From assembly GCA_016875225.1 (NCBI GenBank), contig VGRW01000017.1, positions 1-56,484 on the forward strand: a stretch of DNA of 56,484 nucleotides, in the 5' to 3' direction. A model generated the notes under the pieces. The model did not search any database. It was not told where the DNA came from and worked only from the letters and a program-made list of their open reading frames with translations. The position numbers and the translations under genes are program-made. This document shows positions 30,512 to 43,632 of the stretch, one piece after another (position 1 is the stretch's first letter; every line of letters begins with the position of its first letter). The stretch comes from Deltaproteobacteria bacterium. GTDB lineage: Bacteria; Myxococcota_A; UBA9160; SZUA-336.

Positions 30512-32601
30512 TAGCGGGGAAAGGCGTCCGGAAGCCCGCCGTCGACGGGAAGCACCGCACCGGTGGTGGGAGTCTCCTGGCAGGCGAAGAAGACCACCGC
30601 CCGGCCCACGTGCCCCGCCGTGACGCGCGCCTTCAGCAGATTGCGGTTGCGGTAGAACTCCTCGAGCTCCTCGGGCGCGATCCCGCGCGCGGCCGCGCGG
30701 CCGGGACCGACCTCCTGCCACAGACCCGAGCGGTTCTCGGCCTCGCCGAAGACCGCGTCCGCGTTCACCAGGTTCACGCGCACGCCGATCGCTGCACCCT
30801 CGAGCGCGGCGACGCGGCCGAGCTGGTGCGCGCCGGCCTTCGAGGCGCTGTAGGCGCCGAACTCGATTCCGGGCGCGAACACGTTCTTGGTCGAGACCAG
30901 CACGATGTTTCCGCCCGTCGCCTGCCGGCGCAGCTGGAACAGTGCCTCGCGGAGGGTGAGGAACGCGCCCTTCAGGTTGACGTCGACCGCGGCCTCGAAG
31001 TCGGAGAGTGCGAGATCCGCAAGCGCCCCGACGCGCGCGACCCCCGCGTTCACGACCACGACGTCCACGCCGCCGAAGCGCTCGGCCGCGTGCAGGAACG
31101 CGTCGCGGACGTCGCCCTCGTCGGTGACGTCGCAGCGCACGCCAAGGCAGCGCTCGTCGCCGATCCGCTCGGTCGCGGCCGCCAGCCGCGCCTCGTCCAC
31201 GTCGACGAGCACGACGTTCGCCCCGGCGCGGAGCAGCTCGCGCGCGACGCCCTCGCCGATCGCGCCCGCGCCGCCGGTCACCAGCGCCACCTGGCCTTCG
31301 AGCTTGGCTTGGGCGTCGCGGCGCAGCTTCGCCTGCTCGAGGCTCCAGTACTCCATGTCGAAGAGCTCGCCCTCCGAGAGCCCCTCGTAGCGGCCGATCG
31401 ACGCCGCCCAGATCTTCGTGCGCACGGTGTGCTCGGCGATGTCGGCCGCGATCCGCGCGTCCCGTCGCGTCGCGCCCGCGGCGACCAGGCCGATGCCCGG
31501 CAGCACGAGCACTCGCGGCGTCGGATCGAGCATGGTGCGCTCCACGCGCTTGGCCGCGACGTTCCGGTCGAAATACTTCGCGTAGGAGCTGCGGTACTCC
31601 TCGATCTCCTCGCGAAGCCGCGTCGCGAGCGCCTCGAGATTCCCGTACGGCGGCCGCTCGATGAACAGATAGCGGCCCTTCGTGCGGATCACGTGATCGG
31701 GCGTGATCGGCGCGCTCGCGGCCAGCTCCGGCCCCTGCTCGGCCGCGGCGAAGTGCAGGATCTCGTCGGAGCTGCGCTTCTCGAGCACGAAGCGGCGGAA
31801 CGGGCGCTCGAGATCGCCGGTGCGAACGGCGAGCGCACCGCGAACGACCGAGGCGATCTCCTTCCACTCGCGCATGGCCACGACCGGCCGCGCGTCGAGC
31901 GGCCGGCGGCCCTCGGTCTGGCCGTCGATGAAACTGCGCGCTCGCCCGACCAGCTCGATGTGCCGCTCGTAGCTGGTCTTCGCGTCGTCTCCGAACGTGA
32001 CCAGGCCGTGCTTCTCGAGCACCAGGCCCACGACGTCCGGATCCTTCTCGAAGATCTCGACGGCGGACTTGGCGAGCGCGAAGCCGGGCATCGCCCAGGG
32101 AACCCATCCGACCCGCGAGCCGAACAGCGCGCGCACGCGGGAGGCGCCGTCGGGCTGGTTCGTGAGCGCGAGGATCGCGTCGGCGTGCGAGTGATCGACG
32201 AAGGCCGCGGGCAGGAAGGCGTGGAGCAGCGTCTCGATGCTCGGCGTCGGCGCGGTCGGGTCGACGAGCGCACGGCGCTGCTGCGCGACCATGTTTTCGT
32301 CGGAGAGCGCGCCGAGCGCGCGCAGCTCGAGCAGCGGCTGGAGCAGGAGCGCCGGCAGGCCCGCGGGCTCGATCCGCGCCAGGTCGCTCCCCGAGCCCTT
32401 CACGTGCAGCACGCGGACGTCGCGCCCGAAGAGATCGCGCGCGCTCGTCTTGACCGAGGTGTTGCCACCGCCGTGCAGCACCAGGTCCGGCTCGGCGCCG
32501 ATCAGCCGAGACGTGTAGACGCGGTCGGCGAGGGCTTCGCCCTGCTCGGAGTAGCGCTCCCGGTAGCGCGCGAGCTCCTCAGGACCGAAGCGGCTCTCCA
32601 T
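30511..32601 (-). CDS. Bifunctional class II aldolase / short-chain dehydrogenase
   Basis: A 696-residue fusion, like the RhaD/YuxG family. The N-terminal class II aldolase/epimerase domain (about 1-400) has LHGGGNTSVKTS, HVKGSGSDLA, FVDHSHADAILA and VLEKHGLVTFG with zinc-ligand histidines (HSHAD). The C-terminal domain (about 430-696) is an SDR: VTGGAGAIG, NAGVARVG, VSTKNVF then YSASKAG. A plausible reaction is aldol cleavage of a deoxy-sugar phosphate with oxidation of the aldehyde. It is first in the minus-strand run that continues into SpmAB, SH3, DUF815 and PurU. Confidence 0.85.
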   Translation of the reverse strand: MESRFGPEELARYRERYSEQGEALADRVYTSRLIGAEPDLVLHGGGNTSVKTSARDLFGRDVRVLHVKGSGSDLARIEPAGLPALLLQPLLELRALGALSDENMVAQQRRALVDPTAPTPSIETLLHAFLPAAFVDHSHADAILALTNQPDGASRVRALFGSRVGWVPWAMPGFALAKSAVEIFEKDPDVVGLVLEKHGLVTFGDDAKTSYERHIELVGRARSFIDGQTEGRRPLDARPVVAMREWKEIASVVRGALAVRTGDLERPFRRFVLEKRSSDEILHFAAAEQGPELAASAPITPDHVIRTKGRYLFIERPPYGNLEALATRLREEIEEYRSSYAKYFDRNVAAKRVERTMLDPTPRVLVLPGIGLVAAGATRRDARIAADIAEHTVRTKIWAASIGRYEGLSEGELFDMEYWSLEQAKLRRDAQAKLEGQVALVTGGAGAIGEGVARELLRAGANVVLVDVDEARLAAATERIGDERCLGVRCDVTDEGDVRDAFLHAAERFGGVDVVVVNAGVARVGALADLALSDFEAAVDVNLKGAFLTLREALFQLRRQATGGNIVLVSTKNVFAPGIEFGAYSASKAGAHQLGRVAALEGAAIGVRVNLVNADAVFGEAENRSGLWQEVGPGRAAARGIAPEELEEFYRNRNLLKARVTAGHVGRAVVFFACQETPTTGAVLPVDGGLPDAFPR

Positions 32602-32797
32602 TGCGCGAAAACCTAGCAGAGAGGGCTTGCCTTGCCCCCGCACCGGGCCGCCGATACCCTGCGCGAGTCGGCTCCGAGCGCGCCCTGCCAAGGGTGTTCG
32701 CTCGGCCTGGTCAGTGCCGTCGATGAGCGGGCGGCGATCGGGGCGGGAGCTGGGTCCCGCGCGACGTTCACGCGCCGCGTTAGGAGGTGGTCCAAAA
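32602..32797. other. Upstream half of 403-base intergenic gap
   Basis: Between the aldolase/SDR start and the structured leader lies GC-rich DNA with no gene, repeat or convincing promoter that I can support on either strand. Short open frames here lack ribosome-binding sites. Just beyond its right part, at 32782-32790, lies AGGAGGTGG, which serves the leader peptide described next. Confidence 0.4.
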
Positions 32798-32842
32798 GTG
32801 TTTCAATCAAGCACAGTGACGGCAGAGGTGGTTTCCATCTAG
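32798..32842 (+). CDS. Possible 14-residue leader peptide
   Basis: GTG followed by 13 codons to TAG, predicted peptide MFQSSTVTAEVVSI. The reason to list it is the Shine-Dalgarno TAGGAGGTGGTCC at 32781-32793, among the best in the window, with 10 bases from GGAGG to the GTG. Its codons 6-8 contain CAGTGAC, which can pair with the downstream hairpin loop, so translation would disrupt that pairing. Such short frames arise by chance, so expression is unproven. Confidence 0.3.
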   Translation: MFQSSTVTAEVVSI

Positions 32843-32961
32843 GTCCGCCTAGAAACCTGGTGGCGGACCTGGCATGGCCCAGGAACCACCCGAACCCCGA
32901 GGGTCCGCTTGGTCACTGAGCGGGCGACCGCCACGGCGGGCGCAGCACCTTCGGGGTTTTT
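32814..32961 (+). ncRNA. Candidate structured leader RNA with pseudoknot and terminator-like end
   Basis: Helices found by eye: GGTGGTT 32827-32833 with AACCACC 32884-32890, extended by CC/GG past a bulged T; inside it AGGTCCGCC 32841-32849 with GGCGGACCT 32862-32870; AACCCCGA 32893-32900 with TCGGGGTT 32951-32958; inside that CCGCT 32905-32909 with AGCGG 32919-32923 and CCGC/GCGG at 32928-32939. The 9-base loop of the CCGCT hairpin contains GTCACTG (32912-32918), perfectly complementary to CAGTGAC (32814-32820), giving a pseudoknot. The last helix ends in T5 (32957-32961), 43 bases before the start at 33005. GC is about 50% at 32791-32860. It fits no riboswitch class I recognise. Confidence 0.4.
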
Positions 32962-33004
32962 CTCGCCCGAATCGATCCGAACGCAGACCACGGGAGCCGC
33001 AGAA

Positions 33005-34237
33005 TTGGAGTTCGAGCAGCGCTGCCGGGATCTGCTCCCGAGCCTGGAACGCGAGGACGGCGGACTGCGATTCCACGTCGCGACCGTCGACGGCCCGGCG
33101 GTGATGTCGTCGTGGACGTCCGCGCATCTCGCGCTCTCGTTGCGCCACATCGACGCCGCCGCCGCGCTCGCGGAGCTTCGCGCCCTGTACGAAGGCTGTC
33201 AGCGCGACGACGGCCTGCTCGCGGCCGAGCGCGTCGCCGACGAGGCGGAGCGCAGCGCGCGCATGCGCGAAGTCGGCGCGGTCTTCGGCGAGGACGCGCG
33301 CTCGCAGCTGATCGCGCCGCCGGTCGCCGCGTTCGCGGTCGCCTGTCTCGCGCTCGCCGACGCGGAGGGAAGCCGCGATCTGCTCGAGCTCGCCACGCGC
33401 GAGCTCGACGCGATCTGGGGCGCACGGCTGCCCCCCGACACGCCGCTGCCGGTGATCCTGCACCCGCTGGAGAGCGGCGTTCCGCGTTCGGCGCTCTTCG
33501 AATCGCTGCTGGACTGCGAGGACGACGACGAGTGGCGCGACGACAGCGCGACGCTGTTCCGCTCCGCTGCGGCCTGCCGGCTCGACCCCGAGCACGCGCT
33601 GCGCGCGGGTCACCCGTTCGTGATCGAGGACCCCGTCTTCTGCGGCTGGCTGCTGCTCGCGCTCGAAGAGTGCTCGCGCGCCTGGGAGAAGCTCGGCGAC
33701 ACGACTTCGTGTCAGAAGCTGCGGATCCGCTCCGAGATGATCGCCGAGGGCATCCACTCGCGTCTCTGGTGGGAGGAGCATGAGATCTACGCCGGCTGGA
33801 ATCGCGGCCGGCAGAGCGCGCTCCGCTCGGTGACGGCCGGGGGGTTGCTTCCCGCCGCGACGCGAACGCTGGCCGAGGAGGGCACGCCGCGGCGTCTGGT
33901 CGATCGCCACCTGCGCCCCTCGGCGTCCGCGCTCTGGAGCTCGCGCGGCGTCTTCCACGCCCCGCCCATGCGCGGCGAGCGCGACGACCTCGATTCCCGA
34001 GGCGATCGGCCCGACGCGGCCTCGCCGCTCGCGCACTTCTGGGCGCACCTTGTGCTCTCGCGCGCGGAACGCCCGGCCGACGCGCGCGTCGCACGCGCAC
34101 AGCTCGAGGCGCTCGCGCTCGCGCGCGGGTTCCAGCACGAGTACGACGTCGGGAAGGATCAGCCCGAGGCGATGCTCGCGGACACGTCCGCCCTGCCCCT
34201 GCTCGCGCTGGGAATGCGCGAGCGCGGCCTGCTGTAG
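33005..34237 (+). CDS. Hypothetical protein, alpha/alpha-barrel (GH63/trehalase-like) fold suspected
   Basis: About 410 residues, mostly amphipathic helices, with segments such as IEDPVFCGWLLLALEECSRAWEKLG, IRSEMIAEGIHSRLWWEEHEIYAGW and SPLAHFWAHLVLSRAER that recall six-hairpin glycosidases (GH15/GH63/MGH1-like). The usual catalytic segments (WRGP-W-N and an Asp-rich first motif) are not evident, so activity is doubtful. The TTG at 33005 is chosen because GGGAG lies 8 bases upstream and it falls after the terminator-like helix; an in-frame TTG at 32909 would lie inside that structure. The methyltransferase follows after 16 bases. Confidence 0.55.
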   Translation: MEFEQRCRDLLPSLEREDGGLRFHVATVDGPAVMSSWTSAHLALSLRHIDAAAALAELRALYEGCQRDDGLLAAERVADEAERSARMREVGAVFGEDARSQLIAPPVAAFAVACLALADAEGSRDLLELATRELDAIWGARLPPDTPLPVILHPLESGVPRSALFESLLDCEDDDEWRDDSATLFRSAAACRLDPEHALRAGHPFVIEDPVFCGWLLLALEECSRAWEKLGDTTSCQKLRIRSEMIAEGIHSRLWWEEHEIYAGWNRGRQSALRSVTAGGLLPAATRTLAEEGTPRRLVDRHLRPSASALWSSRGVFHAPPMRGERDDLDSRGDRPDAASPLAHFWAHLVLSRAERPADARVARAQLEALALARGFQHEYDVGKDQPEAMLADTSALPLLALGMRERGLL

Positions 34238-43542: not shown

Positions 43543-43632
43543 GGAGAGATGCCGGAGCGGTTGAACGGGGCGGTCTCGAAAACCGTTGTACCCTCACGGG
43601 TACCGGGGGTTCAAATCCCTCTCTCTCCGCCA
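43543..43632 (+). tRNA. tRNA-Ser (anticodon CGA)
   Basis: A class II cloverleaf with 7-bp acceptor GGAGAGA/TCTCTCC (43543-43549 with 43622-43628), discriminator G and an encoded CCA (43630-43632). The anticodon loop CTCGAAA holds CGA at 43577-43579, reading UCG. The long variable arm (TACCC-TCAC-GGGTA) is characteristic of tRNA-Ser, and the T arm has GGTTCAAATC. It reads UCG, a common Ser codon in this GC-rich genome. Confidence 0.96.

Follow-up and report, generated by a model that had tools for sequence, protein, structure and literature searches.

Ms_IGR-5 (RF02471) is reported as a stand-alone actinobacterial small RNA (PMC8780764, PMC8079986) and is listed as being of unknown function. 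RNA-seq validated it in S. lividans (PMC8079986), it has been mapped in S. avermitilis as an sRNA transcription unit (PMC8780764), and two mycobacteria, M. abscessus and M. smegmatis, are reported to show ribosome footprints on its homologues (PMC4974804). The structure line of RF02471 contains nested helices only, with neither a pseudoknot nor an ORF annotated. We found no description of an ORF, a pseudoknot or non-actinobacterial relatives of Ms_IGR-5 in the open-access literature searched.

In dual-function (translated) small RNAs and in translation-controlled leader RNAs, translation of a short ORF competes with RNA structure. An Ms_IGR-5 relative outside the Actinobacteria that contains a short ORF is described here from a 56,484-nucleotide stretch of deltaproteobacterial DNA, referred to throughout as the window.

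A structured RNA related to Ms_IGR-5

Sequence and comparison identified positions 32743-32962 of the window as a structured RNA made of a 5' hairpin, a Shine-Dalgarno sequence (SD), a 14-codon frame, a pseudoknot and an intrinsic terminator (Table 1). The first-pass annotation had singled out the locus by a fall in GC content to about 50% at 32791-32860, and our recount gave 35 of 70 bases (50%), against 70.8% for the whole window; only about 0.02% of the 70-mers in the window have a GC content as low. It had also read a near-perfect SD ahead of the short frame, the CAGTGAC/GTCACTG pseudoknot strands, and a closing helix running into five Ts about 43 nt before a downstream start. All were confirmed in the sequence, the next in-frame start past the terminator being the TTG at 33005. 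The limits given at the time, 32781-32961, do enclose structured RNA; the true 5' start lies further upstream, as the covarying hairpin P0 indicates.

Table 1. Parts of the RNA, in window coordinates.
Feature	Position	Strand	Basis
5' hairpin P0, GCGGGA-GCTGGG-TCCCGC	32743..32760	+	position and compensatory stems in relatives
Extended Shine-Dalgarno AGGAGGTGGTCC	32782..32793	+	complementary to the 16S rRNA 3' end, one G-U
Mini-ORF, 14 codons, GTG start, TAG stop, (M)FQSSTVTAEVVSI	32798..32842	+	homologous ORFs
Pseudoknot 5' strand CAGTGAC, within the mini-ORF	32814..32820	+	pairs with 32912-32918
P1 5' strand GGTGGTT, last ORF codons; second SD-like motif GAGGTGG	32827..32833	+	pairs with 32884-32890
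P2 hairpin, 9-bp helix AGGTCCGCC/GGCGGACCT	32841..32870 (32841-32849 with 32862-32870)	+	window fold
P1 3' strand AACCACC	32884..32890	+	7-bp helix with GGTGGTT; alignments A1 and A3
Terminator/closing helix P3, 5' strand AACCCCGAGGG	32893..32903	+	pairs with 32948-32958, one G-U
Pseudoknot hairpin CCGCT-(TGGTCACTG)-AGCGG; loop strand GTCACTG 32912-32918	32905..32923	+	comparative pairing
Third hairpin within the P3 junction, length variable	32924..32943	+	window fold and alignment A1
P3 3' strand CCTTCGGGGTT and T5 tract (32957-32961), intrinsic terminator	32948..32961	+	sequence; covarying stem

The predicted fold of 32781-32965 proved far more stable than those of shuffled sequence (z = -5.2; 0 of 200 shuffles equally good). 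Extending the segment by 45 bases on the 5' side yielded a different lowest-energy structure and a z of -3.4. Folding of the single sequence is thus not decisive, and the case for the structure is made by comparison.

A BLASTN search with 32775-32975 found a single copy in the genome itself and clear homologues in 8 of the 10 other same-family genomes sampled; a weak second match in one of them (G002) was rejected as a homologue. Two covariance models were then available from related intergenic regions, as had been suggested at first pass. Model R1, built from the nine aligned sequences of alignment A1, had matches in 11/11 family genomes and full-length matches in additional members of the class. 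Model R2, built from 25 class-type sequences, had matches in 66 of 80 other class genomes, which brings the class total to 77/91, nearly always once per genome (many of the genomes without a match are fragmented or less complete MAGs), and it also matched several other families and other classes of the phylum. The annotation had allowed that related genomes might lack the sequence or break its helices without compensation; instead, relatives carry the RNA with compensatory changes. At the level of genome sequence, these searches show an RNA of about 180-230 nt, usually present in one copy per genome. One class genome (G077) carries two full-length copies, at C70:36046-36245 and C135:367851-368026.

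A search of the window against Rfam at the gathering threshold gave a single match, a tRNA at 43543-43629; no riboswitch family matched the RNA, and a plasmid collection gave no match. The earlier statement that no known riboswitch motif fits therefore holds at the Rfam cutoff, but it missed a divergent relative of RF02471. Against that model the locus scored 21.8 bits (E 0.004 in 351 bases), below the gathering cutoff of 45 bits, aligning end to end (model 1-184); nowhere else in the 3.87 Mb genome did the model match at E <= 10. The best non-actinobacterial relatives reached 32-41 bits against the same cutoff, and 16/16 sampled actinobacterial loci were Ms_IGR-5 above it. A blind RF02471 scan of the 91 class genomes at E <= 0.1 gave 19 matches, 11 of them at R1 loci; four further matches (L198-L201) had the same ORF and pseudoknot on inspection and are recovered by R2. 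Conversely, R1 recovered Ms_IGR-5 loci at full length, these loci having been preselected by pattern. The blind scan landed on the same loci, and the model found nothing else in the genome itself, so the RNA is related to Ms_IGR-5. We consider it highly probable that it is a divergent member of this family with a translated mini-ORF architecture. The two have in common the full-length alignment, an extended SD at the equal position, a closing terminator helix, a probable stand-alone occurrence, a short ORF ending in EV(A/V)Ax-stop (EVVSI-stop in the window) and a hairpin loop complementary to a strand in the ORF (GGAC/GTCC, 4-5 bp, in Ms_IGR-5). The window RNA differs in having 14 codons rather than 12, a 7-bp pseudoknot of other sequence and an additional 5' hairpin.

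Several weaker candidates were set aside. Four weak RF02471 matches (G068, G041, G008:C30 and G055:C451) were judged to be chance since two of the loci (L202, L203) have no ORF and the other two lie off R1 loci. Pseudomon-1 scored 14.6 bits, below its cutoff and over the terminator portion only, and tmRNA was rejected after the tRNA-like domain and tag frame were looked for and not found. In the Caulobacter sRNA CC2171 (RF01867), the consensus starts with AAAGGAGGUGAUCCA followed by GUG, and its beginning, AAAGGAGGUGAUCCAGUG, has the SD-plus-start layout of the window RNA; the score of the window was 11.4 bits (cutoff 75), the likeness being seen at the consensus start alone. CC2171 may be an alphaproteobacterial counterpart and is a lead rather than an established relative.

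To follow the RNA beyond the phylum, GTDB genomes were scanned with a pattern consisting of an SD, a spacer and GAGGTGG...stop, which gave at least 120 loci, preselected for SD and GAGGTGG with start codon and pseudoknot left free. The matches listed were mostly from Actinomycetota, with others from Rokuibacteriota and Nitrospirae, one Deltaproteobacteria-labelled MAG, one unlabelled MAG and one Acidobacteria locus (L095) that is doubtful as a member, having no clear pseudoknot. An in-frame start lay 11-15 codons ahead of the stop in 119 of the 120 matches listed. As far as sequence comparison reaches, the mini-gene, its SD and the pseudoknot are very old features that several bacterial phyla have retained.

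The mini-ORF and the pseudoknot in relatives

The GGAGGT core of the SD is invariant in alignments A1 and A3. Its complement, the 16S 3' end GGATCACCTCC, was read in a family member (G008), the 16S of the genome itself being incomplete in the assembly. The genome has 14 AGGAGGTGRTC sites, but only 2 stand ahead of a start codon; the others are apparently inside coding sequence.

What is held constant was read from a comparison of 137 distinct homologous ORFs, each 11-15 codons long. Their length is mostly 14 codons (13-15) outside the Actinobacteria and 12 (11-13) within them. The start codon swaps between ATG, GTG and TTG and is never CTG; differences in length inside the ORF are whole codons, and the spacer between SD and start varies freely. 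Codons 2-5 are AT-rich and unconserved. The pair GAG GTG is identical in 137/137 ORFs, third bases included, a figure that is partly by construction as the search was anchored on GAGGTG. In Actinobacteria, codon -6 keeps a T at its third base as its first base and residue vary. The C-terminal residues EV(A/V)(A/T)x are conserved, with EV(A/V) kept as amino acids too, which makes a functional peptide conceivable. Since codons 2-5 vary and GAG GTG, fixed at its third bases, lies inside RNA helices, the comparison shows, for these predicted ORFs, that start codon, frame, length and stop are kept and the peptide is not. Such a pattern would fit selection on translation and on the RNA, not mainly on peptide sequence.

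In one clade (L024, L027, L031, L198 and similar class loci), GATTCGGTG, which runs from SD to start codon, complements CACCGAATC right after the stop, and the latter can alternatively pair with a later TCTCGGTG. The first pairing is possibly an anti-RBS helix, a candidate switch masking the start codon in this clade only.

The pseudoknot strand within the ORF lies at a fixed distance ahead of GAGGTG, and its complement is in a hairpin loop within the terminator stem. With G-U allowed, all seven positions pair in 50 of 60 non-actinobacterial sequences (shuffled mean 1.1, maximum 4), and pooled pair types include compensatory ones at 5/7 positions. The sequence types are exclusive: the partner of CTACGGC is present in 27/28 sequences of its own class and in 2/23 of other types. 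Across the whole structure, 8 pairs in alignment A3 show double-sided changes, in 27 cells altogether, and 0 of 500 shuffles scored as high. A3 and position-anchored counts replaced the R1-guided alignment A2, whose pseudoknot columns were left out because the terminal hairpin of class members was misaligned. A swap test with free offset told us nothing, as long matches arise by chance in GC-rich sequence (936 of 3074 swaps were equally good), and the fixed-position shuffle control was used instead.

The nested helices fared differently. Both perfect helices described at first pass, of 7 and 9 bp, are present in the window. P1 is paired in 100% of A3 cells, with one compensatory case (GGTGA/TCACC, L028). 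Support for the 9-bp helix of P2 comes from no more than the four nearest relatives, and compensation is seen in L002, L003 and L006 only; it is a lineage-specific hairpin, other relatives forming a different one there. In P3, 6 of 10 pairs are changed on both sides in A3, and most relatives have the covarying terminator stem followed by a T-rich tail (A1, A3). L009/L023 has a different terminal hairpin; L023 (G004) has lost the closing helix and carries the unrelated hairpin GTCGTCGCAACGAGCTTGCGACGAC in its place.

At the 5' side, most relatives outside the Actinobacteria have P0 about 22 nt ahead of the SD, with a CTGG(G) loop and stems compensated across families (GCGGGA/TCCCGC, GCGGAG/CTCCGC, GCGAGG/CCTCGC). 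It is absent in Actinobacteria, where promoter-like sequence (GGTTGT...TAnnnT directly upstream, for example at L157, L046 and L061) occupies its place, so that the transcript would start just some 10 nt upstream of the SD, without the 5' hairpin. In the actinobacterial loci GGAC/GTCC is the counterpart of the pseudoknot: the 4-nt complement was found in a hairpin loop at 101/105 GGAC loci, and 5/5 GGAT loci carry ATCC. As unrelated 4-mers scored 20-72/105 in the same test, this part of the pseudoknot evidence is suggestive only.

Neighbouring genes and rival explanations

The first-pass annotation had called the element a leader RNA, and neighbouring genes bear on this directly; genes were called by codon-position GC, which makes the counts approximate. 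Among the loci compared, the conserved same-strand downstream gene expected of a cis-regulatory leader or attenuator was not found. Of the 83 downstream neighbours called in Actinobacteria, 50 are convergent, and in the class 19 loci are followed by 13 different families. Upstream neighbours, named from their protein sequences, are shared within a clade but not between clades: a purU-like gene in the class, an aminodeoxychorismate-lyase-like one in mycobacteria. In the window, a gene for a bifunctional class II aldolase/short-chain dehydrogenase lies divergently upstream at 30514-32601 (-). At least 15 class genomes (L163-L177, L189-L197) have the purU-like gene, a formyltetrahydrofolate deformylase by sequence, in divergent orientation about 250 nt upstream, where it possibly shares a control region with the RNA. 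Two actinobacterial loci have c-di-AMP riboswitches nearby (L119:2717-2876 and L127:7534-7742), probably by coincidence. Since neighbours are unconserved and often on the opposite strand, the RNA has its own terminator and its actinobacterial relatives are reported as stand-alone, the name leader lacks support, and the window RNA is very probably a stand-alone RNA. One family departs from this picture: in f1, one co-directional gene, an MGH1-like glycoside hydrolase, makes up 5 of the 8 downstream neighbours called, so a local cis role there is possible.

That gene, starting at 33005 in the window, could be the target of a transcription-attenuating leader controlled by translation of the leader peptide. 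Its orientation, the distance of about 43 nt from the terminator and its recurrence in several f1 genomes speak for such an arrangement, which is nevertheless decidedly unlikely, given that the RNA persists without the MGH1-like gene in other f1 members and the remaining class, where downstream genes are unrelated or convergent, that P3 was found to have no conserved antiterminator as a competitor, and that related RNAs are annotated as stand-alone sRNAs. Nor does pairing with a distant target account well for the pseudoknot loop. A stand-alone gene with an exposed loop and a terminator is what an ordinary trans-acting antisense sRNA would look like, but the loop co-changes clade by clade with its partner in cis (CAGTGAC, CTACGGC, CTACGAC, GGAC), which points to the ORF, not a conserved target, as its partner and makes the antisense reading very unlikely.

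Two further explanations start from the translation signals. If the transcript were a plain mRNA for a functional peptide of 12-14 residues, with RNA structure serving stability and termination, the strong SD, the conserved start, stop and frame and the C-terminal residues conserved as amino acids would follow; the unconserved N-terminal half, the absence of synonymous variation at GAG GTG (with the anchoring noted above), the third-base T of actinobacterial codon -6 and a covarying pseudoknot inside the ORF make it rather improbable. The complementarity of the SD to the 16S 3' end and the footprints on relatives (PMC4974804) would suit a ribosome decoy, with an SD that sequesters 30S subunits or the anti-SD and an ORF that serves only to clear the ribosome. 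A decoy would need neither the pseudoknot nor a fixed ORF length and would require very high abundance, and we regard it as unlikely.

A proposed translation-gated RNA

The explanation we favour, with a probability of roughly 55%, is that of a stand-alone, translated small RNA whose pseudoknot can form only while the mini-ORF is free of ribosomes. A ribosome at the SD and reading the mini-ORF would cover the pseudoknot strand as well as the P1 strand, and the two pairings would form only on an RNA with no ribosome engaged. The act of translation would itself be the signal, and the conformation of the RNA would report it, because a ribosome on the mini-ORF excludes pseudoknot and P1. The two forms, translated and open or untranslated and knotted, would differ in stability or in partner binding, and the RNA would act away from its own locus, reporting or buffering free 30S subunits or initiation capacity. 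That such gating is the function of the RNA is suggested by the overlap of the elements, and we put it at even odds. The first-pass annotation had offered switching by peptide translation or by a ligand; the overlap argues for the former, and ligand sensing found no support. Set against dual-function sRNAs and translation-controlled leader RNAs, the window RNA is stand-alone, without a conserved target gene, and conserves frame and structure, not a known peptide or seed.

More broadly, and tentatively, we propose a very widespread class of stand-alone RNAs, in Actinomycetota and several Gram-negative phyla, that may sense ribosome availability through translation of a mini-ORF: the ribosome-free RNA would close a pseudoknot between ORF and terminator hairpin, and the two forms would act differently. 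The comparison adds Ms_IGR-5 relatives in other phyla, and a conserved core in which a covarying pseudoknot ties a translated mini-ORF to the terminator. The orphan annotation Ms_IGR-5 thereby becomes a specific hypothesis that can be tested in M. smegmatis and Streptomyces. Should the RNA indeed read out ribosome engagement, very many bacteria would carry, usually in a single copy, a small-RNA sensor of a new kind.
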